Source: Phycisphaeraceae bacterium (lineage in GTDB: Bacteria > Planctomycetota > Phycisphaerae > Phycisphaerales > Zrk34). From it: a stretch of 64,000 nucleotides of DNA. The DNA is taken from positions 1-64,000 of the forward strand of contig JANQHD010000030.1 in assembly GCA_028282805.1 (NCBI GenBank), in the 5' to 3' direction. This document shows, one piece after another, positions 5,281 through 37,602 of the stretch. The translations under genes were made by a program, and so were the position numbers. Below the pieces are notes generated by a model. It did no database searches and was not told where the DNA came from. It saw only the letters and a list, made by a program, of their open reading frames with translations. The number at the start of each line of letters is the position of its first letter. Position 1 is the first letter of the stretch.

Positions 5281-6837
5281 TTAGCCCGGTCGCCCGCGAC
5301 CGGCTATGGCGATTGCGCCCATGGCGAGAAACACGATCGCGCTCGGCTCCGGCACCGCGGGCGATGAAGGCGCGGCGCCGTGGCCCCAGTTCATGCCCAC
5401 CGCGTCGAGGTCGGCGAGGGTGATCGATCCATCGTCGTTGAAGTCGCCCTTCAGCCAGTTGCCGGCCTGGCCGAAGTTCACGCCGATCGTGTCGAGGTCC
5501 ACCAGGCTGACTTCGCCGTCGCGGTTCGCGTCGCCGGCGACCGCCACGCCGTAGCCGAAGAACTGGTTGACCAAGTCCAGGTCGCTCTGTCCAACCACGC
5601 CGTTGCCGTTGAAGTCGCCCTGCTGCCAGCCCCCGACGGCTTGGCCCAAGTTGGCCTGCACGATCGCAAGGTCGGCATCGTCGACGTAGCCGTCTTCGTT
5701 CGCATCGCCCGGGGCGCGCGGCAGGAAGACGACCTCGTCGTGGACCAGGTCGACGTAATACCGGGCGAACGCCGAGGGCTGCTCGCTGCCGCCGAAGATG
5801 TCGATCCCGCTCGACGAGGGGTGGAACAGGTTGTTGCCCAAGATGCCCGGCAGGTCGGCCGGGAGCGCCCCGTCCTCCGGCACGAACACGACCACGTCCT
5901 CGTAGACCATCTCGTCGCCGTTGGCCATCGGCATCACCAATTCGGCCAACTCGTAGCCGAACAACGTGCGGACGACCTCGCCCACGCCGATCACCTCGAC
6001 GGTGGTCACGGGCGCATCGTTGACCAGGTCGATGCCCGCGGCGGTCGCCAGGTCGCGCCCGAAGATCGACACCGAGGCGCCCGAGTCGAACAGCCAGTCC
6101 GACGTGACGCCCGCGTCGCCGGGGTTCAGCTTGATGTGCACGTCGGGCACCATCGGGTTGGTGGTCACCGTCACGGGCGGGTTCGGGTCGTCGATGAAGT
6201 CGAACTGCACCAGCGGCACGGTCAGCCGGGTCGTCGGCAGGAGCTGCGGGGTGGCGTCGATGATGCGCGTCTGCGCGTAGAGGACGAACGGGACCAGCGT
6301 GAGCTCGCCGATCTGGTTCGGGCGGACCTCCATCACGTGGTCGATCAGGGCGGGCATGCCGATCACGTCGACCGCGCCGGTCAGCAGCGGGTCCGACTGG
6401 CGGGCCTGCACCTTGAGGTTGCCGAAGGAGACGAACTCGGATTTGTCGGGCGTGGTTTCGAGGATGTCGTCGTGGTAGGCGAGCATCAGCTCGACGGGCT
6501 GGGTGACGTTGAAGGTTTCGATGCCGCCGATGCCGATGTCGTCGAAGGTCTCGCCGGTCAGCGGGACGCCGAGCGTGGCCTGGGCGCCGTGGCTGAGCAG
6601 CGTGCCGCTGGCACCGGTGTCGAAGATCACGGGCACATGGAACTCAATAAACACCTCGCCGAGAACTTCGAAGACGTCCTCGTACCACGAGCCATCGGCG
6701 GGGTCGCGGTAGCCGGCGTAACCGCCCGGCAGGTACAGCGACTGCTGAAGCACCGGGGGCAGGACGTGCCGTTCGGCGAACGCGGGCACCGCCAAGCACC
6801 CGGCAAGGATGAGGGCGAAGATGGCCTTGTGAACCAT
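5281..6837 (-). CDS. Secreted retropepsin-like aspartic protease with dockerin-type repeats and PEP-CTERM tail
   Basis: A 518-residue exported protein. A signal peptide (LILAGCLAVPAFAE) is followed by two aspartic-protease lobes. The first has IFDTGASGT (Asp73) and the second WLFDSGASVS (Asp251), so both catalytic half-sites of a pepsin/retropepsin fold are kept. Residues about 377-486 hold two pairs of calcium-loop segments of dockerin type, such as GDANEDGYVDDADL and GDFNDDGSITLADL. The C terminus (VPEPSA, hydrophobic stretch, GRGRPG) is a PEP-CTERM sorting signal. The start at 6837 gives a normal signal peptide and has GGAGGA upstream, although at a long spacing; a much longer frame upstream is not used. 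Substrate and partner cohesin are unknown. Confidence 0.85.
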   Translation of the reverse strand: MVHKAIFALILAGCLAVPAFAERHVLPPVLQQSLYLPGGYAGYRDPADGSWYEDVFEVLGEVFIEFHVPVIFDTGASGTLLSHGAQATLGVPLTGETFDDIGIGGIETFNVTQPVELMLAYHDDILETTPDKSEFVSFGNLKVQARQSDPLLTGAVDVIGMPALIDHVMEVRPNQIGELTLVPFVLYAQTRIIDATPQLLPTTRLTVPLVQFDFIDDPNPPVTVTTNPMVPDVHIKLNPGDAGVTSDWLFDSGASVSIFGRDLATAAGIDLVNDAPVTTVEVIGVGEVVRTLFGYELAELVMPMANGDEMVYEDVVVFVPEDGALPADLPGILGNNLFHPSSSGIDIFGGSEQPSAFARYYVDLVHDEVVFLPRAPGDANEDGYVDDADLAIVQANLGQAVGGWQQGDFNGNGVVGQSDLDLVNQFFGYGVAVAGDANRDGEVSLVDLDTIGVNFGQAGNWLKGDFNDDGSITLADLDAVGMNWGHGAAPSSPAVPEPSAIVFLAMGAIAIAGRGRPG

Positions 6838-7033
6838 GGGCGTAACAGCTTCCTCCAACCGCCCGGTGTGATTAACAGTAGCACGTGGATCGCGGCGGGC
6901 CAACCGGATCGCCGATCGGGCGTGTGTTTTTTCGCCTTTGCGTAAGCCCGATCCGCCAGACGCGCCGCACAAACCGACCAGTCGCCCCAAGTTCACCGCG
7001 CGGCGCGCGGCAGCGTACATTGCACCGCGTGTG

Positions 7034-7684
7034 TTATTCGAGGCCGACGTACTCGGCCCACAACTCGTCGAGCGACTTGCCGGTTTCTTTCTTGAAGATC
7101 TCGGGGCTGTACGCGCCGCGGCGCATCGCGGTGTTCAGCTTCTTGACGATGCCCGGGGCGGCGTCGGTCTCGAGCCACAGCAGAAAGCCCGCGGCCACGC
7201 GATAGCCCCTCTCGTAACCCTTAACCTTCCGGGGGCGCGGGAACCATTCCTGCGGCTTGCCCTCGTAGATCGCCCAGCGCACGTAATCGGCCACGCCCTC
7301 GACCAGCCAGCCCTCGTTGCCGCGCGGGTACGATTGGATCACGTGCACCAGCTCGTGGATCACCACGCCCACGTCGTCGGGGTGCTTGTCGACCCAGTGC
7401 GACATGACGCTGATCCGCCGCCCCGCCGTCGCGGCCACGCCCTTGTCCGACTTGCGGATGCGCAGCACAACCCGGCGCGGCGGGTCGAAGCCTTTCGTCG
7501 GCAACAGGTTGACGATCCGCGGGTGCCACTCGAGGATCAGTTGCCTGGATTGCTCACCCCACGCCTTGAGGTGCGGCGCCTCCTTGACGTCGAGTTCGAC
7601 AGTGAGCGGTTCCTTCTCGTCTTCTGCGCCGCCCAGGCACAGCAACGCGGCAAACAACAAGGCAATACCTGTACGCCTGTTCAT
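7034..7684 (-). CDS. Exported basic secretory-type metallopeptidase
   Basis: A 216-residue protein with an N-terminal signal peptide (IALLFAALLCLGGA). It carries the zinc motif HELVHVIQ followed by WLVEGVADYVRW, the pattern of the basic secretory protein peptidase family (gluzincin-like HExxH plus a downstream glutamate). Further conserved pieces are SHWVDKHPDDVG and the C-terminal GKSLDELWAEYV. The chosen ATG has GGAG upstream and gives a clean signal peptide. The frame is open further upstream but there only shadows the aminotransferase gene. It probably acts in the periplasm or outside the cell, and it follows the aminotransferase gene by 29 bases. Confidence 0.8.
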   Translation of the reverse strand: MNRRTGIALLFAALLCLGGAEDEKEPLTVELDVKEAPHLKAWGEQSRQLILEWHPRIVNLLPTKGFDPPRRVVLRIRKSDKGVAATAGRRISVMSHWVDKHPDDVGVVIHELVHVIQSYPRGNEGWLVEGVADYVRWAIYEGKPQEWFPRPRKVKGYERGYRVAAGFLLWLETDAAPGIVKKLNTAMRRGAYSPEIFKKETGKSLDELWAEYVGLE

Positions 7685-7713
7685 TGCGTCAACTCCGTGC
7701 GGCGTGTTGTGGT

Positions 7714-8916
7714 TCAGTTGCGTTCCGGTCCGCCGGGTTCGGTGGTGGTGTCGCGGCGGAGCAGCAGCTTCTCGCGGTCGATCATGATCTTCAGCGTCAA
7801 GCACACCAGCTCCACCTGCGTGGCGTCCATGCGGTTGTAGAACGGCAAGGCGATCGTGCGCTGCGCGGCGGACTCGGCGAGGGGGAAGTCGCCGACCTCG
7901 CAGCCGAAGCGCTGACGGTAGCACGGCTGGAGGTGGATGGGCGGGAAGTAGTTGCTGACGCCGATCTCGTGGCGGCGCATGCCGTCCATCACGCGGTTGC
8001 GGGCCTGGGCGCCGAAGTCGTGCGAGAGGCGGACGACGAACACGAACCAGCTCATCTGCGTGTCGTCGTCGATGTTCGGCAGGATCACGTCGGGGTTGTC
8101 CATCAGGCGGTCGAAGTACATCAGCGCGACCTGCCGGCGTCGTTCGAGCAGCTGGTCGAGGCGTTGCATCTGCACGCAGCCGATCGCGGCGGCGATCTCG
8201 GACAGGCGGTAGTTGTAACCGAGGCGCTCGTGCTGGAGCCACGAGCCGACCTCGCGGTCGGGGTGGTCGTCGCCGACCGGCCGGCCCTGGTTGCGCAGGG
8301 ATCGGCAGCACGCGGCGAGGCGGTCGTCGTTGGTGACGATCATGCCGCCCTCGCCGGTGGTGATCTGCTTGTTGGGGTAGAAGCCGAACACGGCGGCGCG
8401 GCCGAACGACCCGACGGGCCGGCCCCGGTAGACGCCGCCGAGCCCCTCGCAGGCGTCTTCGATGAGCGGGACCTCGTGGCGGCCGGCGATCTGCGCCAGG
8501 CGCTGCATGTGGCGGGGGTTGCCGAAGACTTCGACCGCGATGATCGCCTTGGTCTTCTCGGTGATCGCGGCCTCGACCTTGCCGGGGTCCATGTTCAGGC
8601 TGGTCGGGTCGACGTCGACGAAGACGGGCGTGGCGCCGACGTAGAGGATGCAGTTGGCCGAGGCGATGAAGCTGAACGGCGTGGTGATCACCTCGTCGCC
8701 GGGGCCGACGCCCAGCGCCTCGAGCACGAGGTGCAGGCCCGCGGTGCCGGAGGAGACGGCGATGCCGTGGCGCTGGTCGGCGCGCTCGGCGACCATCTCT
8801 TCGAAGCGGTCCTGCCGGGGCCCGATGGACAGCCGACCGCTGCGCATCACCTCGGTGACGGCGTCGATTTCGGCTTGCGAGATATCGGGCAACGAAAGCG
8901 GTATTTCGCGTTCCAT
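7714..8916 (-). CDS. DegT/DnrJ/EryC1/StrS-family sugar aminotransferase
   Basis: A PLP-dependent aminotransferase of about 400 residues that typically acts on nucleotide-linked keto-sugars for surface polysaccharide or glycan synthesis. Visible motifs are the N-terminal IPLSLPDI, the PLP-phosphate loop SSGTAGLHL, the cofactor aspartate in LIEDACEGLGG and the PLP-lysine segment FYPNKQITTGEGG. The ATG at 8916 is used; a GTG four codons upstream (8928) is an alternative and neither has a clear ribosome-binding site. No other sugar-pathway genes are adjacent, so the sugar is unknown. Confidence 0.92.
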   Translation of the reverse strand: MEREIPLSLPDISQAEIDAVTEVMRSGRLSIGPRQDRFEEMVAERADQRHGIAVSSGTAGLHLVLEALGVGPGDEVITTPFSFIASANCILYVGATPVFVDVDPTSLNMDPGKVEAAITEKTKAIIAVEVFGNPRHMQRLAQIAGRHEVPLIEDACEGLGGVYRGRPVGSFGRAAVFGFYPNKQITTGEGGMIVTNDDRLAACCRSLRNQGRPVGDDHPDREVGSWLQHERLGYNYRLSEIAAAIGCVQMQRLDQLLERRRQVALMYFDRLMDNPDVILPNIDDDTQMSWFVFVVRLSHDFGAQARNRVMDGMRRHEIGVSNYFPPIHLQPCYRQRFGCEVGDFPLAESAAQRTIALPFYNRMDATQVELVCLTLKIMIDREKLLLRRDTTTEPGGPERN

Positions 8917-8958
8917 AATCGAATGCACTTAAAGGCGTGGGGGTTAGCCGGGCGTAGG

Positions 8959-10473
8959 CTACGAACCGATGTTCTCGCCGAGCACCCGGGCCAGGGCCAC
9001 GCGGTCCTGATGGGTCAGTTTCAGGTATGTCCAGGCGGCCTGCAAGCGGAGCGGCTCTTCCAGCCCGCCGCCGCCGCTCATCACCAGCACAAGGGCCTTG
9101 GCGTCTTCATCGGAGATCTTGTCGGCGTGCTTGCTGCGGAGCAACAACGCCAGCGAGCGCGCGGTCCGCCCCTCGAACGCGATGCCCTCGATCACGCGCT
9201 GCGGGTCGTCGCCCGACGAGCGGATCAGGCCCATGAGCATCACTTCCTTGAGCAGCTCGGAGCTGTCGGCCACGAGCTGGCGGAGCCGGTCGGCGCCCTG
9301 CGCGTCGAGCTCGTGCAGGTTCTCCGCGGCCAGCGCCGCGAACTTGAGCCGGTGGGCGCGGAAGCGGGGTTCGTCGTTATCGCCGTCGCGGATCAGTGCC
9401 TCGAGCACACGCCGCATGCCGTCGGGGTCGAGCTTGTAGTTTTCCTCAGCGTAGCCGAGCACCCACCCGCTGGCGATGTAGTTGTTTTGCGCGATCAAAC
9501 CGATCAGCGCATCGGCGACGGGCTTCTTCTCGGCGATGGCCAGGCCGGCCTTTCCGATCGCGTCGATCACGGGCACCCGGTCGCCCACGATGGCGCTGAA
9601 GACCCGGGGCTCCAGCCGGTCGGCGATGTCCAGCGCCAGCAGGGCCAGGCGCGTGCGCTCGGCCTCGCTGGTGGTGGAACCGATGCGCTCGAGCCAGAGC
9701 TCAACGGCGCCGGGCGTGTTAAACCGCATGGCCACGCGCAGGCCCTGTCGGCCGATGGCGCGGTCGACGTCTTTCTCGCGGGCGACTTGCAGCGCCCAAT
9801 CGCCGATCTTGTCGAACTCGTACTTCAGCGCCGACTGGAGGATGAGGGCGCGGGTGCTCTCTTTGCGCGGCGAGTCAGATTCGTTGATCGCGTCGAGCGT
9901 CTTGCGTGCCTCGGCCTTGCCGAGTTGCAGCTGGAGCAACGACGCCATGCCGCGCAGCGCCAGGTTCTCGTGGCTGGCCTCGGCGTCGAGCGTCGACGGG
10001 TCGACCCTGCGCTGGTCGGACACGAGCTTGCCGATCACCAGCACGCGCACCTTCGGGTCGAGGCCCGGCCAGCGCGCCAACTGCTCGGCGGCATCGGTGG
10101 TCAGCAGCTGGTCGTCGATCGCCTGGCCGATGAGCACGGCCTGCGTGGTGGGTTCCTTGATGTCGGCCACGAGCGCCAGGTCGAGGTGCGGCGGGTCGGC
10201 GATCTCGGCGAGCCCGAGGATGCCGTGGATCTTCAGGCCCGGGTGGCGGCGCTGAATCAGTTCGCTGAACAGCGGTTCGAGCTTCGGGTCGCGCATCTGA
10301 CGCAAGGCGCGCAGCAGCAGGTTGTGGTCGCCGTTGCGGTGGACGAGCATGGCCTTCTGCAATTGCCAGATGGCGTGGTCGGTGGCCTCGTCGGCGCGGG
10401 CGACCGACGCCAATAGCGTAACGAGGGTGAGGGTGAGCACGATATGCCGAGCGACATGATGCATACACGGCAT
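8959..10473 (-). CDS. Exported alpha-helical repeat (HEAT-like) protein
   Basis: A protein of about 504 residues with a signal peptide (IVLTLTLVTLLASVARADE). The rest is almost entirely helical, with repeating units such as RDPKLEPLFSELIQRRHPGLKI and clusters of leucine, alanine and arginine spaced as in HEAT/ARM repeats. No catalytic motif is visible. Two start codons close together (10473 and 10464) fit the signal peptide. The domain assignment is by pattern only; the function is unknown, perhaps a periplasmic scaffold. It lies directly downstream of dnaA but is separated from it by a strong terminator. Confidence 0.6.
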   Translation of the reverse strand: MPCMHHVARHIVLTLTLVTLLASVARADEATDHAIWQLQKAMLVHRNGDHNLLLRALRQMRDPKLEPLFSELIQRRHPGLKIHGILGLAEIADPPHLDLALVADIKEPTTQAVLIGQAIDDQLLTTDAAEQLARWPGLDPKVRVLVIGKLVSDQRRVDPSTLDAEASHENLALRGMASLLQLQLGKAEARKTLDAINESDSPRKESTRALILQSALKYEFDKIGDWALQVAREKDVDRAIGRQGLRVAMRFNTPGAVELWLERIGSTTSEAERTRLALLALDIADRLEPRVFSAIVGDRVPVIDAIGKAGLAIAEKKPVADALIGLIAQNNYIASGWVLGYAEENYKLDPDGMRRVLEALIRDGDNDEPRFRAHRLKFAALAAENLHELDAQGADRLRQLVADSSELLKEVMLMGLIRSSGDDPQRVIEGIAFEGRTARSLALLLRSKHADKISDEDAKALVLVMSGGGGLEEPLRLQAAWTYLKLTHQDRVALARVLGENIGS

Positions 10474-28437: not shown

Positions 28438-28564
28438 TTTCCCGCGCCCCGTCCCATAACGCTCGCACTTGCTCATCTCCCCGCTTCAGTCGCCCTCCGT
28501 ATTAACCGATTGTCGCTAAGTGGAAGTTGCGCACGGTGGGTGCCGGCGCGGGGAATGGACATAC

Positions 28565-29161
28565 ATGTTCTCAAAGGCAAAAACGCCACATCGACCAAGG
28601 GGGGCCAAGCGCTACACGAGCGACGTGGTGCGCTGCAACCTCGGTAAGGTGTTGGACCTGTCGCGCAGCGGCATACGCCTGCGCATCGAGGACAAAACCA
28701 AGTACAAGGAAGGCCAACGCGTCAGCGGCAAGATCGGCTGCATGCAGGGCGCGATCAAGATCACCGGCGTCGTGCGGTGGGTCAAACGCGTGAAGCGCGG
28801 CGTCACCGAGATCGGCATGGTCTTCCTCAACGTCGACCCCAAGACCGCCGAGGCCATCGAGATCCTCGCGCAGTACGGCTTCATCGAACGCCCGTCCGCC
28901 CGCAAGACCGAGCAGCCCAAGTCGGACAAGCCCCCCGTCAAGGGCAAGCCCAACCGCGGGCCCGACCTCTACGCCCTGCTCGGCCTCAAGCCCGGCGCGT
29001 CCAGCCAACAGATCAAGCACGCCTACCGCGTGCTGGCCAAGCGCTACCACCCCGACACCGCCCCCGACGAACAAGACGCGGCCAAGTTCATCGCCATCAG
29101 CGCCGCCTACGAGGTGCTGTCCGACCCCGAGCAGCGCAAGGATTACGACCGCGAACGGTAA
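28565..29161 (+). CDS. PilZ domain-DnaJ domain fusion protein
   Basis: A 198-residue cytoplasmic protein. Residues 12-16 (RGAKR) fit the RxxxR motif and 31-36 (DLSRSG) the DxSxxG motif of c-di-GMP-binding PilZ domains, which extends to about residue 105. A charged, proline-containing linker (about 108-132) leads to a J domain (about 134-196) with the invariant HPD at 162-164 and the closing EVLSDPEQRKDYD. J domains stimulate Hsp70 (DnaK), so this could be a c-di-GMP-controlled co-chaperone; that is inference. The ATG at 28565 follows GGGGAATGG. No dnaK is nearby. Confidence 0.85.
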   Translation: MFSKAKTPHRPRGAKRYTSDVVRCNLGKVLDLSRSGIRLRIEDKTKYKEGQRVSGKIGCMQGAIKITGVVRWVKRVKRGVTEIGMVFLNVDPKTAEAIEILAQYGFIERPSARKTEQPKSDKPPVKGKPNRGPDLYALLGLKPGASSQQIKHAYRVLAKRYHPDTAPDEQDAAKFIAISAAYEVLSDPEQRKDYDRER

Positions 29162-30775: not shown

Positions 30776-30818
30776 TACGAAAAATTTCGTTGACTCTACG
30801 AAAGATTTCGTTTACCGT
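30776..30818 (+). promoter_or_regulatory. Promoter with tandem BlaI-type operators
   Basis: Two near-identical palindromes, TACGAAAAATTTCGTT (30776-30791) and TACGAAAGATTTCGTT (30797-30812), start exactly 21 bases apart, about two helical turns. TTGACT (30790-30795) and TACCGT (30813-30818) with a 17-base spacer could be the -35 and -10. The second palindrome then fills the spacer and the first ends at the -35. This layout suits autorepression by the BlaI protein encoded 27 bases downstream. Confidence 0.75.
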
Positions 30819-30844: not shown

Positions 30845-31234
30845 ATGGCCAAGCCGACACAAACCAAGCCGACCGAGAGCGAACTGGAGATACTCACCGC
30901 GTTGTGGGGCCTGGGCCCCGCCACGGTGCGCCAGGTGCACGATAAGCTCGGCGCCCAGCGTGAGGTGGGCTACACCACCGTGCTCAAGCTCATGCAGATC
31001 ATGCTCGACAAGGGCCTGGTCGCACGCGACGAATCGCAGCGCTCGCACGTTTACCGCCCCGCCATCTCGCAGACCCAGACCCAGCGCCAATTGGTGCGCG
31101 ACCTCGCCCGGCGCGCGTTCGGTGGCTCGGCGCGCAAGCTCGTCATGCAGGCGCTGGCCGGCCGAAAACCCAGCGCCGACGAGATCCAAGAGATCCGGTC
31201 CATGCTCGACCAAATCGAAGGAGGCCAACCATGA
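30845..31234 (+). CDS. BlaI/MecI/CopY-family transcriptional repressor
   Basis: A 129-residue dimeric winged-helix repressor. The N terminus is PTESELEILTALW, and the recognition region is GYTTVLKLMQIMLDKGLVARDE. The C-terminal helices mediate dimerisation. Members are inactivated by a membrane M56 protease. The next gene is exactly such a protease and starts in the ATGA overlap, so the pair is translationally coupled. The two palindromes upstream are its likely operators. The regulon is probably its own operon, perhaps envelope polysaccharide genes elsewhere. Confidence 0.92.
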   Translation: MAKPTQTKPTESELEILTALWGLGPATVRQVHDKLGAQREVGYTTVLKLMQIMLDKGLVARDESQRSHVYRPAISQTQTQRQLVRDLARRAFGGSARKLVMQALAGRKPSADEIQEIRSMLDQIEGGQP

Positions 31235-33834
31235 CCGGCCTGACCGAACTGTTGCAACACCCCCTCGTCGAACAGCTCGCGTGGGCCCTGCTGCACTCGC
31301 TGTGGCAGCTGGCCGCGATCGGCCTGGCGGCCTGGTGCGTGCTGCGTCTGATGCGCCGCCGCTCGGCCAACGCACGCTACCTCGTCGCGTGCGCCACGCT
31401 GGCCACAATGATCGCTGCGCCGGTGATCACGTTCCTGTACATGCAGCCCAACGAAACACCGCCCCTACCGGTGATCGGCGAACCGATCGGTGGCCCCGTG
31501 TTCAGCGCACCGTCAACCCCGTCGAGCACCGCCGTTGCGCCCATTGAGCAAACACAAGCGGCGGCGCCACCGAGCGATGGCTGGCGTTGGTCGGCGGCCC
31601 TGCCGTACCTCACGGCGTTCTGGTTAGCGGGCGTGCTGCTCGGCTCATTGCGCCTGTTCGGCGGGTGGGTGATGATCCAACGCCTGCGCCTCGCGGGCAC
31701 GCGAACGATGCCCGGCGATTGGCCGAGCCGGGTCGATGAGCTGATGAAAGCGATGGGCCTGCGCCGTCGCGTGCGCGTGCGGGCGTCGACGAAGGCGGCC
31801 GTGCCCGTGGCGCTGGGCGTGCTGCGCCCGGTGGTGCTGCTGCCGGTGGCGGTGATCAACGAGCTGACGCCGGCGCAGGTCGAGGCGATCATCACCCACG
31901 AGTTGGCGCACATCCGCCGACACGATTACCTTGTCAACCTCGTGCAATGCGTCGCCGAGACGCTGCTGTTCTACCACCCGGCGGTGTGGTGGGTGGGCCG
32001 GGTGATCCGCCAGGAGCGCGAGCACTGCTGCGACGACCGGGTGGTGTCGATCGGCGGCGACCGCGCGAACTACGCGCTGGCGCTGACGCGCCTCACGGAG
32101 CTGCTGCAAAGCCACACGCCGTTCGCCCTCGCCGCGACGGGCGGCGCGCTGGCCCGGCGCATCCGGCGGATCGTGCGAGGCGAACCGGCGCCCCACCAAC
32201 ACCGCGCTGAGCGCCTGTTGCTTGCGGGCCTGGCGCCGGTGGTGCTGACGATGTCGCTGATCGTCTACGGCGTCAAAGCCAGCGATACCCCCACAACCGA
32301 GCCCGAGCCGGCACCGACAACCGCGCCGACGCCCGCCCCGGATGCGAAGCCCGTGTACACGCAGCGGGTCATCGAGATCCCCAAGGACAAGCTGCTCGCC
32401 GGCGACGCGTCGGTGAACATCGTCATCCGTCCCGGCGACGTGATCCGCATCGCCAAGGCAGAGGGCAACGTCTTCATCGGCGGCAAGATCAAGCGGCCCG
32501 GCACCTACGCCCTGCCCGGCAGCCAGCCGCTGACGGTGAAGCAGTTGGTCTTATCCGCCGGCGGCATCGGCGAAGGCGCCGACGGCGTGCTCGTCATCCG
32601 GCGAACCGGGGACAAAGCGTCGCTCGTGTTCGCCGCGACGGACAAAGACATGGAACAGGTCGACGGGCCGGACTTGGTCTTAAAGCGCAACGACCTCGTG
32701 AAGGTGGTCGAATCCATCCGTGACCAGGCCAAAGGCGCGCGTACCGATCAGCTCCGCAAGGAGCAGCAGGCCGCTTATGAGTTCCTCAACGCGCTGCCGA
32801 CACGAGAAGCCGAGCTGGTTAATGCGTTGAACGAAGCGGAGCTGCACTACGGCAAAAAACACCCGGCCCGCGTCAAACTCGCCAAGCAATTGGAAGCATT
32901 GAAAACCGAAGGTGCGCGGCTCGATGCCAGGACTGATGAAATCTGGGTCGAGCTGCTGAAGGAAGTGCACAAGCAGGTCGTTAAGCCCGGTCCCGTACCG
33001 CAGACTACAACCGTCCGGCCCGAAGACCTGTTACCCAATCAAGGTCCCTACCGTCTTTCCGTGGGCGACGTGGTCAGCGTGTCGGTGTTCGAGTTGCTCA
33101 AACCCGGCGAAGAACACGTCCAGGCGCAGCGTATCGACGAAATGGGTCGCATCCGCCTCGCCATAATCGGCCAGATCGACGCCGCGGGGCTTACCGCGAA
33201 AGGCTTAGAGCAAGCAATCACCCGCAAGCTGAAAGGCGGGCTGATCGCCGAACCGCTGGTTGGCGTAGCCGTCAAAGAAAAACGCGGCAACACGTTCAGC
33301 GTCATCGGCGACAGCAAAGACGTGCGGACGGGTGTCTACACGCTCACACGCCCCGACATGCGTTTGCTCGAGGCGATCGCGCTGGTCGGCGGCGTGCCGA
33401 AAGATGCGCAGGTGTTCGTGATCCGCCAGAACGCCAAGCCCGCGGACAACACAATCAAGGTCCGGGCCGTGATCGAACGCGAGGGCAAGGTGATCTCGAG
33501 CCCCACGATCACCACCCGCCCGGGCGTGCCGGCTTCGATCGAGATCGAGGACCAATCGGAACCCGGCGACGGCGTCCAGATCGAGGTCATCCCCGAGCGG
33601 TCAGACGCGGCCCAACCGAGCGCGGACCCCACGCAAAGCCATGCGGTGATCGGCCGGGTGCTCGGCAGGGACATCCGCCTGTCCGACCTGGGACTGGACG
33701 CAGACCACCTGCGGAAGCTGATGGACAAGGTGTGGGACGATGCGCACAGCGATCCCCTGGAACCGTACCTGAGGCTGCACGCCCGCGAGGCCCTCGCCGA
33801 TGCGATCGTGCTGCAACACGTCGAATCGGCCTGA
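31231..33834 (+). CDS. M56 (BlaR1-like) membrane peptidase fused to SLBB/polysaccharide-export domains
   Basis: An 867-residue membrane protein. N-terminal helices (about 15-38, 50-70, 125-148) precede the zinc-protease site HELAHIRRHD (about 223-232), with the downstream CCDDR in the usual M56 position. A fourth helix lies near residue 330-350. The exported C-terminal part is not a penicillin-binding sensor. It has one soluble ligand-binding beta-grasp (SLBB) domain (VIRPGDVIRI, about 398-470), a helical lysine-rich segment (about 490-590) and a second Wza-like polysaccharide-export unit (YRLSVGDVVSVSV to about 735). I infer that the outer part senses a glycan or export machinery and signals cleavage of the BlaI repressor. 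Confidence 0.88.
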   Translation: MTGLTELLQHPLVEQLAWALLHSLWQLAAIGLAAWCVLRLMRRRSANARYLVACATLATMIAAPVITFLYMQPNETPPLPVIGEPIGGPVFSAPSTPSSTAVAPIEQTQAAAPPSDGWRWSAALPYLTAFWLAGVLLGSLRLFGGWVMIQRLRLAGTRTMPGDWPSRVDELMKAMGLRRRVRVRASTKAAVPVALGVLRPVVLLPVAVINELTPAQVEAIITHELAHIRRHDYLVNLVQCVAETLLFYHPAVWWVGRVIRQEREHCCDDRVVSIGGDRANYALALTRLTELLQSHTPFALAATGGALARRIRRIVRGEPAPHQHRAERLLLAGLAPVVLTMSLIVYGVKASDTPTTEPEPAPTTAPTPAPDAKPVYTQRVIEIPKDKLLAGDASVNIVIRPGDVIRIAKAEGNVFIGGKIKRPGTYALPGSQPLTVKQLVLSAGGIGEGADGVLVIRRTGDKASLVFAATDKDMEQVDGPDLVLKRNDLVKVVESIRDQAKGARTDQLRKEQQAAYEFLNALPTREAELVNALNEAELHYGKKHPARVKLAKQLEALKTEGARLDARTDEIWVELLKEVHKQVVKPGPVPQTTTVRPEDLLPNQGPYRLSVGDVVSVSVFELLKPGEEHVQAQRIDEMGRIRLAIIGQIDAAGLTAKGLEQAITRKLKGGLIAEPLVGVAVKEKRGNTFSVIGDSKDVRTGVYTLTRPDMRLLEAIALVGGVPKDAQVFVIRQNAKPADNTIKVRAVIEREGKVISSPTITTRPGVPASIEIEDQSEPGDGVQIEVIPERSDAAQPSADPTQSHAVIGRVLGRDIRLSDLGLDADHLRKLMDKVWDDAHSDPLEPYLRLHAREALADAIVLQHVESA

Positions 33835-33986
33835 CCGACGAACAGCGGCTGGCGTTGGCCGGATGGCTCGAACGTTACGCGGCGACGCTGCCGCCCGGCG
33901 ATCCCGCCACGGCGGACAAGATCGCCCAAGAGCGGGCCAGGCGGCTCGCCGCTCGTTTCGGTTTAGAGTTGCGCGCGCAACTCTGA
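33732..33986 (+). pseudogene. Open -1 frame continuing past the M56-SLBB stop codon
   Basis: After the stop at 33832-33834 the -1 frame stays open for 51 codons, and reads like protein (LTDEQRLALAGWLERYAAT, then DKIAQERARRLAARF). Upstream of 33830 the same frame looks like a shadow of the M56 gene. This could be a lost C-terminal helix separated by a frameshift, or a small gene starting at a GTG at 33732. No slippery site is seen. Confidence 0.3.
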
Positions 33987-36720: not shown

Positions 36721-37602
36721 GTGCAAGCACGACATCTTGTTCTATCGTTAACCATCGCGGTTATCGTTGTGGCCACATCGCGACCGGCGCAGGCCGTGTT
36801 GATCACGTTCGATTCGTTCGAGCCCACGACGTTCTCCGAGGTGCCCACCTCCGACCCGCAGTCATCCAGCGGGATGCAAGCCGTCCACCCCGGCGCGTTG
36901 ACCGAGTTCATCCTGCCGGAGGTCGGCAACATCGTGCTGACGATCAAGCGTCAGAACGGCGCGACGTTCGACCTGATCGACAACTCGCTGCTCAGCCAGC
37001 AGTCCAAGGCCGGCGACGACGGCGTCGACTCGTTCGGCGGCATCTCGCTCGACCCGTTCTCCGACACCTCGCCCAGCGCGTTCATCTTCAATTTCGTCCA
37101 ACTCGACAGCGAGGGCGGCGAGAACGATTCGACGATCATCCAAGAAGATTATGACGACGACGACGACCTGCCGTTGCCGATCCGCTCGTTCAGCGCACTG
37201 ATCGGCGACTTCGGCGGCGACGGCGACGGCTACCGCATGTTCGCCTACTCCGGCTTCGACGGCACCGGCGACCTCGTCGCTTCCACCTCCGAGACGATCG
37301 CCCTGCCCCGGCTTCACCCCAACCGCGACTGGACCGAGAAACGCATCGGCCTGATCTCCGGCACGGAAGAAGAACCCGGCGACGGCTTCCGCAGCATCGT
37401 GCTCTTCGCCGGCGGCGGCCTGGGCTCGGCCAACTTCAGCGTCTACCTCGACCGCCTGTTCTTCGCCGTCGGCCCCGACCCGTTCGACCCGCTGTTCGAC
37501 GACCCCAACACGCTCGGCGACGACGACCTGATCGTGCCCGAGCCCGCCTCGCTCGCCCTGCTCATGCTCGGCGGCCTGGCGATGATCACCCGCCGGCGCT
37601 AA
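36721..37602 (+). CDS. PEP-CTERM sorting-domain protein
   Basis: A 293-residue exported protein starting at GTG after GGGGAG. It has a signal peptide (SLTIAVIVVATSRPAQA), then a beta-rich, acidic body with runs of aspartate (YDDDDDLP). A C-terminal VPEPASLALLMLGGLAMITRRR carries the PEP motif, a membrane stretch and an arginine cluster recognised by an exosortase. No exosortase gene is in the window. The body is not recognised; such proteins are usually cell-surface or matrix components. Confidence 0.85.
   Translation: MQARHLVLSLTIAVIVVATSRPAQAVLITFDSFEPTTFSEVPTSDPQSSSGMQAVHPGALTEFILPEVGNIVLTIKRQNGATFDLIDNSLLSQQSKAGDDGVDSFGGISLDPFSDTSPSAFIFNFVQLDSEGGENDSTIIQEDYDDDDDLPLPIRSFSALIGDFGGDGDGYRMFAYSGFDGTGDLVASTSETIALPRLHPNRDWTEKRIGLISGTEEEPGDGFRSIVLFAGGGLGSANFSVYLDRLFFAVGPDPFDPLFDDPNTLGDDDLIVPEPASLALLMLGGLAMITRRR

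Follow-up and report, generated by a model that had tools for sequence, protein, structure and literature searches.

The best-known BlaR1/M56 receptors sense beta-lactams. In the BlaR1/MecR1-BlaI/MecI systems of Staphylococcus and Bacillus, an M56 gluzincin domain and four membrane helices are joined to a C-terminal exported penicillin-binding sensor, and the receptor is encoded together with a BlaI-family repressor behind a palindromic operator at their own promoter. In BlaR1 of Staphylococcus aureus, whose gluzincin residues are H201/E242 and whose topology is N-out/C-out, sensor engagement drives cleavage of BlaI at an Asn-Phe pair (PMC9834060).

Poly_export and SLBB domains are found in Wza/OPX export lipoproteins, among them TIGR03027 (XrtA/PEP-CTERM export protein) and EpsE (TIGR03028), in which a lipoprotein signal and the canonical order of Poly_export followed by SLBB repeats are expected. 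For the PEP-CTERM/exosortase (EpsH) system, the table of Haft et al. 2006 (PMC1569441) sets PrsK and PrsR beside EpsH, and M56 and BlaI proteins are apparently not among the components in that table. A search of a collection of papers found none joining SLBB with M56 or BlaR1, and nothing on Peptidase_M56 with Planctomycetes.

Here we describe an operon in the window (the whole 64,000-nucleotide stretch of Phycisphaeraceae DNA that was analysed) in which a BlaI-family repressor gene is followed by an M56 protease gene extended by an OPX module (Table 1). A preliminary description had proposed an M56 receptor whose exported part holds an SLBB unit, a helical spacer and a second Wza-like unit, which partners BlaI and takes its input from exopolysaccharide or its export. 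Our best explanation, to which we give an even chance, is that this BlaI/M56 receptor carries as its periplasmic sensor a captured, block-swapped copy of the OPX lipoprotein from the organism's own exosortase operon, and that it would read the export apparatus. Elsewhere the window has a gene for a PilZ-DnaJ fusion (28520-29161), in which a c-di-GMP-type domain is joined, unusually, to a chaperone cofactor, and one for a PEP-CTERM protein (36721-37602).

Table 1. Features of the blaI-m56 operon, in window positions.
Feature	Position	Strand	Details
Tandem BlaI-type operator, TACGAAAAATTTCGT and TACGAAAGATTTCGT	30776..30811	+	starts 21 bp apart
BlaI/MecI-family repressor gene	30845..31234	+	129 aa; Penicillinase_R 6.8e-29
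M56 receptor protease fused to permuted OPX module	31231..33834	+	867 aa
Peptidase_M56 domain, residues 22-312	31294..32166	+	Pfam; H223ExxH227 + E264xxxD268
Last membrane helix, residues 330-348	32218..32274	+	hydropathy plus BlaR1 topology (PMC9834060)
SLBB block, residues 376-492	32356..32706	+	homologue of the resident lipoprotein's C-terminal SLBB
Predicted helical-hairpin spacer, ~residues 496-582	32716..32976	+	AlphaFold2 pLDDT ~75-92; specific to the window protein
Poly_export and following SLBB block, residues 603-733	33037..33429	+	homologue of the resident lipoprotein's N-terminal half
C-terminal tail, residues 740-867	33448..33831	+	low-confidence model

Protease domain and exported part of the receptor

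The receptor ORF is intact, has high GC3 over most of its length, and matches Peptidase_M56, SLBB and Poly_export in one reading frame, all over the Pfam cut-offs. The Peptidase_M56 match (2.1e-33; 116.2 bits against a cut-off of 31) and a complete gluzincin signature (HExxH and ExxxD), with the 41-residue motif spacing of BlaR1 H201/E242, bear out the proposed receptor protease. A BlaR1-like NCBIfam model matches residues 127-346 (3.8e-23, under its equivalog cut-off), and in a sequence search of the PDB residues 115-269 match BlaR1 (8exp) at 3.8e-4. Because BlaR1 is N-out/C-out, the part of the window protein beyond the last membrane helix (residue 348) is predicted to be periplasmic. As in the BlaR1/MecR1 systems, the window protein has four membrane helices before its exported part and a co-encoded BlaI-family repressor behind a palindromic operator. 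It differs in its sensor: Pfam detects no transpeptidase or penicillin-binding sensor domain in the window protein, which has the OPX module in its place. The operator sequence, TACGAA-N3-TTCGT, differs too, and no beta-lactamase gene was seen beside the operon.

The exported part runs SLBB, helical hairpin, Poly_export, SLBB and then tail. Pfam matches SLBB at residues 414-458 (1.3e-10) and Poly_export at residues 603-681 (2e-16), an EpsE-like NCBIfam model matches residues 607-750 (2.2e-22), with scores under the equivalog cut-offs for TIGR03027 and TIGR03028, and a sequence search of the PDB matches residues 584-739 to domains D1-D2 of Wza (2j58) at 1.5e-7. When residues 351-867 were modelled with AlphaFold2, the Poly_export core and the hairpin were predicted at pLDDT ~75-96, and all 10 significant PDB fold matches were Wza/OPX proteins. 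The helical spacer of the preliminary description is modelled as a two-helix hairpin for which Pfam and PDB searches returned no family; a Wzz-like coiled coil was considered for it and dropped, as neither search supported one. Together these results uphold the arrangement of an SLBB unit, a spacer and a second Wza-like unit, and the Pfam matches settle the doubt whether SLBB and Poly_export would be significant at all. The window protein thus has the domains of a Wza/OPX protein, but its SLBB block precedes Poly_export, we found neither a lipobox nor a lipoprotein signal ahead of the module, and its anchor is an inner-membrane protease.

For the tail (residues 740-867) we found no known family, and no homologue in any locus compared. 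The -1 frame is open after 33829 as far as 33983 and reads LTDEQRLALAGWLERY..., so that the true 3' end of the gene may differ; after a possible -1 shift, 33829-33983 would read IGLTDEQRLALAGWLERYAATLP...ELRAQL.

The resident lipoprotein of the exosortase operon

Both exported blocks match a single 531-aa predicted export lipoprotein encoded on another contig (C52) of the same genome, residues 370-492 aligning with its residues 363-488 (48% identity, E 1e-27) and residues 599-806 with its residues 105-320 (39% identity, E 1e-31). The lipoprotein is ordered Poly_export-SLBB1-linker-SLBB2 and the fusion SLBB2-spacer-Poly_export-SLBB1, so that the blocks are swapped. A conserved C-terminal YGxGF-type motif of the resident lipoprotein is missing from the captured modules; in the exosortase operon (L120, 1-7961), whose leading gene encodes this OPX lipoprotein (6369-7952), the conserved motif at the C-terminus reads YGxGFLLDRNFG.

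The lipoprotein gene stands first in its operon, directly followed by an exosortase gene (PF09721 5.4e-50; TIGR02602 over cut-off) and then by genes for an EpsI-like protein and a PrsT-like TPR protein, an arrangement resembling the PEP-CTERM/exosortase system described by Haft et al. 2006 (PMC1569441). Among the genomes sampled, 31 from five families have an exosortase gene directly downstream of the lipoprotein; none was found there in three genomes of family f8 or in G006. Since 382 of the 397 genomes sampled from the class match the module, the OPX lipoprotein is a near-universal component in the class, where it is probably used to export surface sugars beside the exosortase sorting enzyme. 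The genome has three Poly_export genes, the third of which adjoins a sugar transferase, as is ordinary for exopolysaccharide genes. It also has two BlaI genes and two clear M56 genes, the other M56 protein having an unrelated C-terminus.

The M56 operon lies on contig C7 and is unlinked to the exosortase operon, which counts against our best explanation; it is encoded neither in nor next to that operon, and no capsule genes adjoin it either.

Recurrence and origin of the fusions

We searched related genomes for further fusions, with overlapping samples of 378 genomes of the order, 51 of one family, 397 of the class and 362 of the phylum for the permuted module. M56 proteins with SLBB and/or Poly_export over the Pfam cut-off occur in seven genomes of three families, five of them with Poly_export (the window protein, L129, L171, L178 and L205). 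L129 (genome G078, 845 aa) has the window order, M56-SLBB2-Poly_export-SLBB1, and L130 (G084), which is cut by a contig start, reads M56-SLBB2-SLBB1 with no detectable Poly_export. In L171 (G488) a 1354-aa open frame joins M56 to a tandem pair of Poly_export-SLBB units plus two more SLBB blocks, L178 (G527) and L205 (G517) read M56-Poly_export-SLBB and are both cut by contig ends, and L180 (G057, 1420 aa) has M56 with SLBB blocks. The permuted module also stands behind a sigma-70 ECF domain, in the manner of ECF sigma factors with C-terminal extensions: L131 (G093, 7257-9668, minus strand, 804 aa) reads ECF-SLBB2-Poly_export-SLBB1, and differs from the window protein in its signalling head, so that the module serves more than one receptor type. 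Besides the window genome, only G078 and G093 in these samples have the permuted module in one piece, and G084 has it in part; a phylum-wide module search of 362 genomes at E<=1e-45 added no other permuted copy, and a search of plasmids found M56 and export proteins only as separate proteins. The fusion is rare (one of nine genomes of the family), which also counts against our best explanation. Because independent genomes carry M56-SLBB/Poly_export fusions, we can discard the concern that the window fusion is an artefact of assembly or annotation.

A blaI-like ORF lies directly upstream of the M56 gene at the window locus, L129, L171, L178, L180, L205 and most other M56 loci checked. Tandem copies of TACGAA-N3-TTCGT, 20-23 bp apart, precede blaI in the window, L129, L171, L178 and L205, so that all five Poly_export-carrying fusions have both the gene and the tandem operator; no tandem operator was seen before L180.

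A tree of the concatenated blocks places the G078 module among lipoproteins from the same genus (support 100/100), and it is 61% identical to the lipoprotein of G078 itself. A single group of the three permuted modules (window, L129 and L131) is rejected (p=0.005), as is a grouping of the window with L129 (p=0.012), and a grouping of the window with L131 is not rejected (p=0.26). The fusions of family f11 fall close to f11 lipoproteins in a Poly_export tree, though support for this is not strong. The M56 domains of the window, L129, L171 and L178 can be placed in a single clade (not rejected, p=0.63), and that of L180 falls in another deep clade. One origin of all fusions was thus set aside. 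Because one origin of the permuted modules is rejected and the G078 copy nests among lipoproteins from the same genus, the trees support recurrent capture, with at least two independent permuted captures, and more if those of f11 are counted separately. The local look of L129 could also stem from gene conversion between a fusion and its resident lipoprotein. We infer that the swapped order may come from a tandem duplication, as in L171, followed by trimming.

The window module sits on a long branch (1.64), and this, together with the open -1 frame, would fit a fusion that arose by chance or is decaying and has no function, in which the module evolves fast and the 3' end may be frameshifted. 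We regard such decay as very improbable, since the catalytic residues and the tandem operator are intact, the operon overlap is kept, GC3 is high along most of the gene, and parallel fusions arose independently in other genomes.

The SLBB/Poly_export part might instead be a generic periplasmic module for ligand binding or oligomerisation, with an input unrelated to export. The C-termini of related M56 proteins are, by eye, ankyrin-like, carboxypeptidase-regulatory-like, secretin-like, helical or lipocalin-like, among 110 M56-matching ORFs (L001-L111) no other has SLBB or Poly_export, and four M56 proteins (L202, L203, L204 and L207) have weak, divergent SLBB matches under the Pfam cut-offs, all of which would suit a generic module. 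We nevertheless think it unlikely, if a serious contender, because the window and G078 copies are closest to the exosortase-linked lipoprotein and not to random SLBB proteins, and because captures in the same permuted order were repeated.

Two further observations concern M56 C-termini at large. In planctomycete proteins (L112-L119, L133-L140) they appear by eye to be LRR-like, ankyrin-like, secretin-like, carboxypeptidase-regulatory-like, papain-like or helical, and so form an unmapped repertoire of candidate sensors. About 6 of 107 M56 proteins (L129, L130, L039, L073, L078 and L088) close their last membrane helix with a lipobox-like motif whose final residue is Cys, where signal peptidase II might cut the sensor free as a lipoprotein.

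Regulation and proposed sensing

The blaI stop overlaps the M56 start by 4 nt, and the repressor matches BlaI structures in the PDB (1sd4, 1e-5; 2g9w, 1.2e-12). Upstream of blaI stand two 15-bp copies of TACGAA-N3-TTCGT; with the Penicillinase_R match, they confirm the BlaI partner and operator of the preliminary description. The genome was searched for this pattern with up to 2 mismatches, and exact copies occur only at the blaI promoter in its 3.9 Mb. Of the 17 one-mismatch sites examined, 12 lie within called ORFs, as does L188, first taken as an intergenic operator site, which sits within a 411-aa ORF; for the remaining four no promoter setting was called. A BlaI regulon at export genes was therefore rejected, with no convincing second target, and the sole BlaI target found is the blaI-m56 operon itself, a difference from the BlaR1/MecR1 systems. 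No intact operator was found near exosortase or sugar-export genes in the genome-wide search, and the Asn-Phe cleavage pair of S. aureus BlaI aligns with Gln-Ala in the window BlaI; both count against our best explanation.

With exact operators confined to its own promoter, induction mainly yields the protein itself. This would suit a protein that acts on the export apparatus, as a mimic or decoy that plugs or titrates export complexes while the M56 domain merely sets its level, and so would the missing YGxGF-type motif and the absence of a lipoprotein signal before the window module. However, blaI-blaR1 systems are usually autoregulated as well, and the BlaR1-type topology and the variety of other M56 C-termini favour sensing, which makes a decoy improbable.

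For the receptor as a sensor, we propose that the tethered module recognises the same partner as the lipoprotein, for which the nascent glycan, exosortase-associated machinery or the lipoprotein ring itself are candidates. A free or abnormal partner would shift the sensor and with it the M56 domain, which would then cleave BlaI and derepress the operon, as in BlaR1. Since the window copy and L129 retain 42 and 44 of 49 near-invariant lipoprotein positions (L131 retains 32), these two at least plausibly preserve the recognition surface. The reading proposed at the outset is thus supported in part: homology to the exosortase-operon lipoprotein and fusions in independent lineages strengthen the idea of an input from export or exopolysaccharide, and no link from BlaI to export genes appeared.

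Homology links the sensor to one particular resident machine, which turns its input into a testable guess. More broadly, and with rather less than even confidence, we suggest that recurrent self-mimic receptors in phycisphaeral bacteria, built on M56/BlaI and on at least one ECF sigma factor, monitor polysaccharide/PEP-CTERM export by competing with the real lipoprotein. That two unrelated signalling heads carry the module in one and the same unusual permuted order shows parallel evolution, in which a sensor is made by capturing a part of the system that is probably sensed. If true, our reading would connect exosortase/PEP-CTERM export, which is poorly understood, with a proteolytic switch that is already known, and it suggests that cells have a new means of following the building of their own surface.
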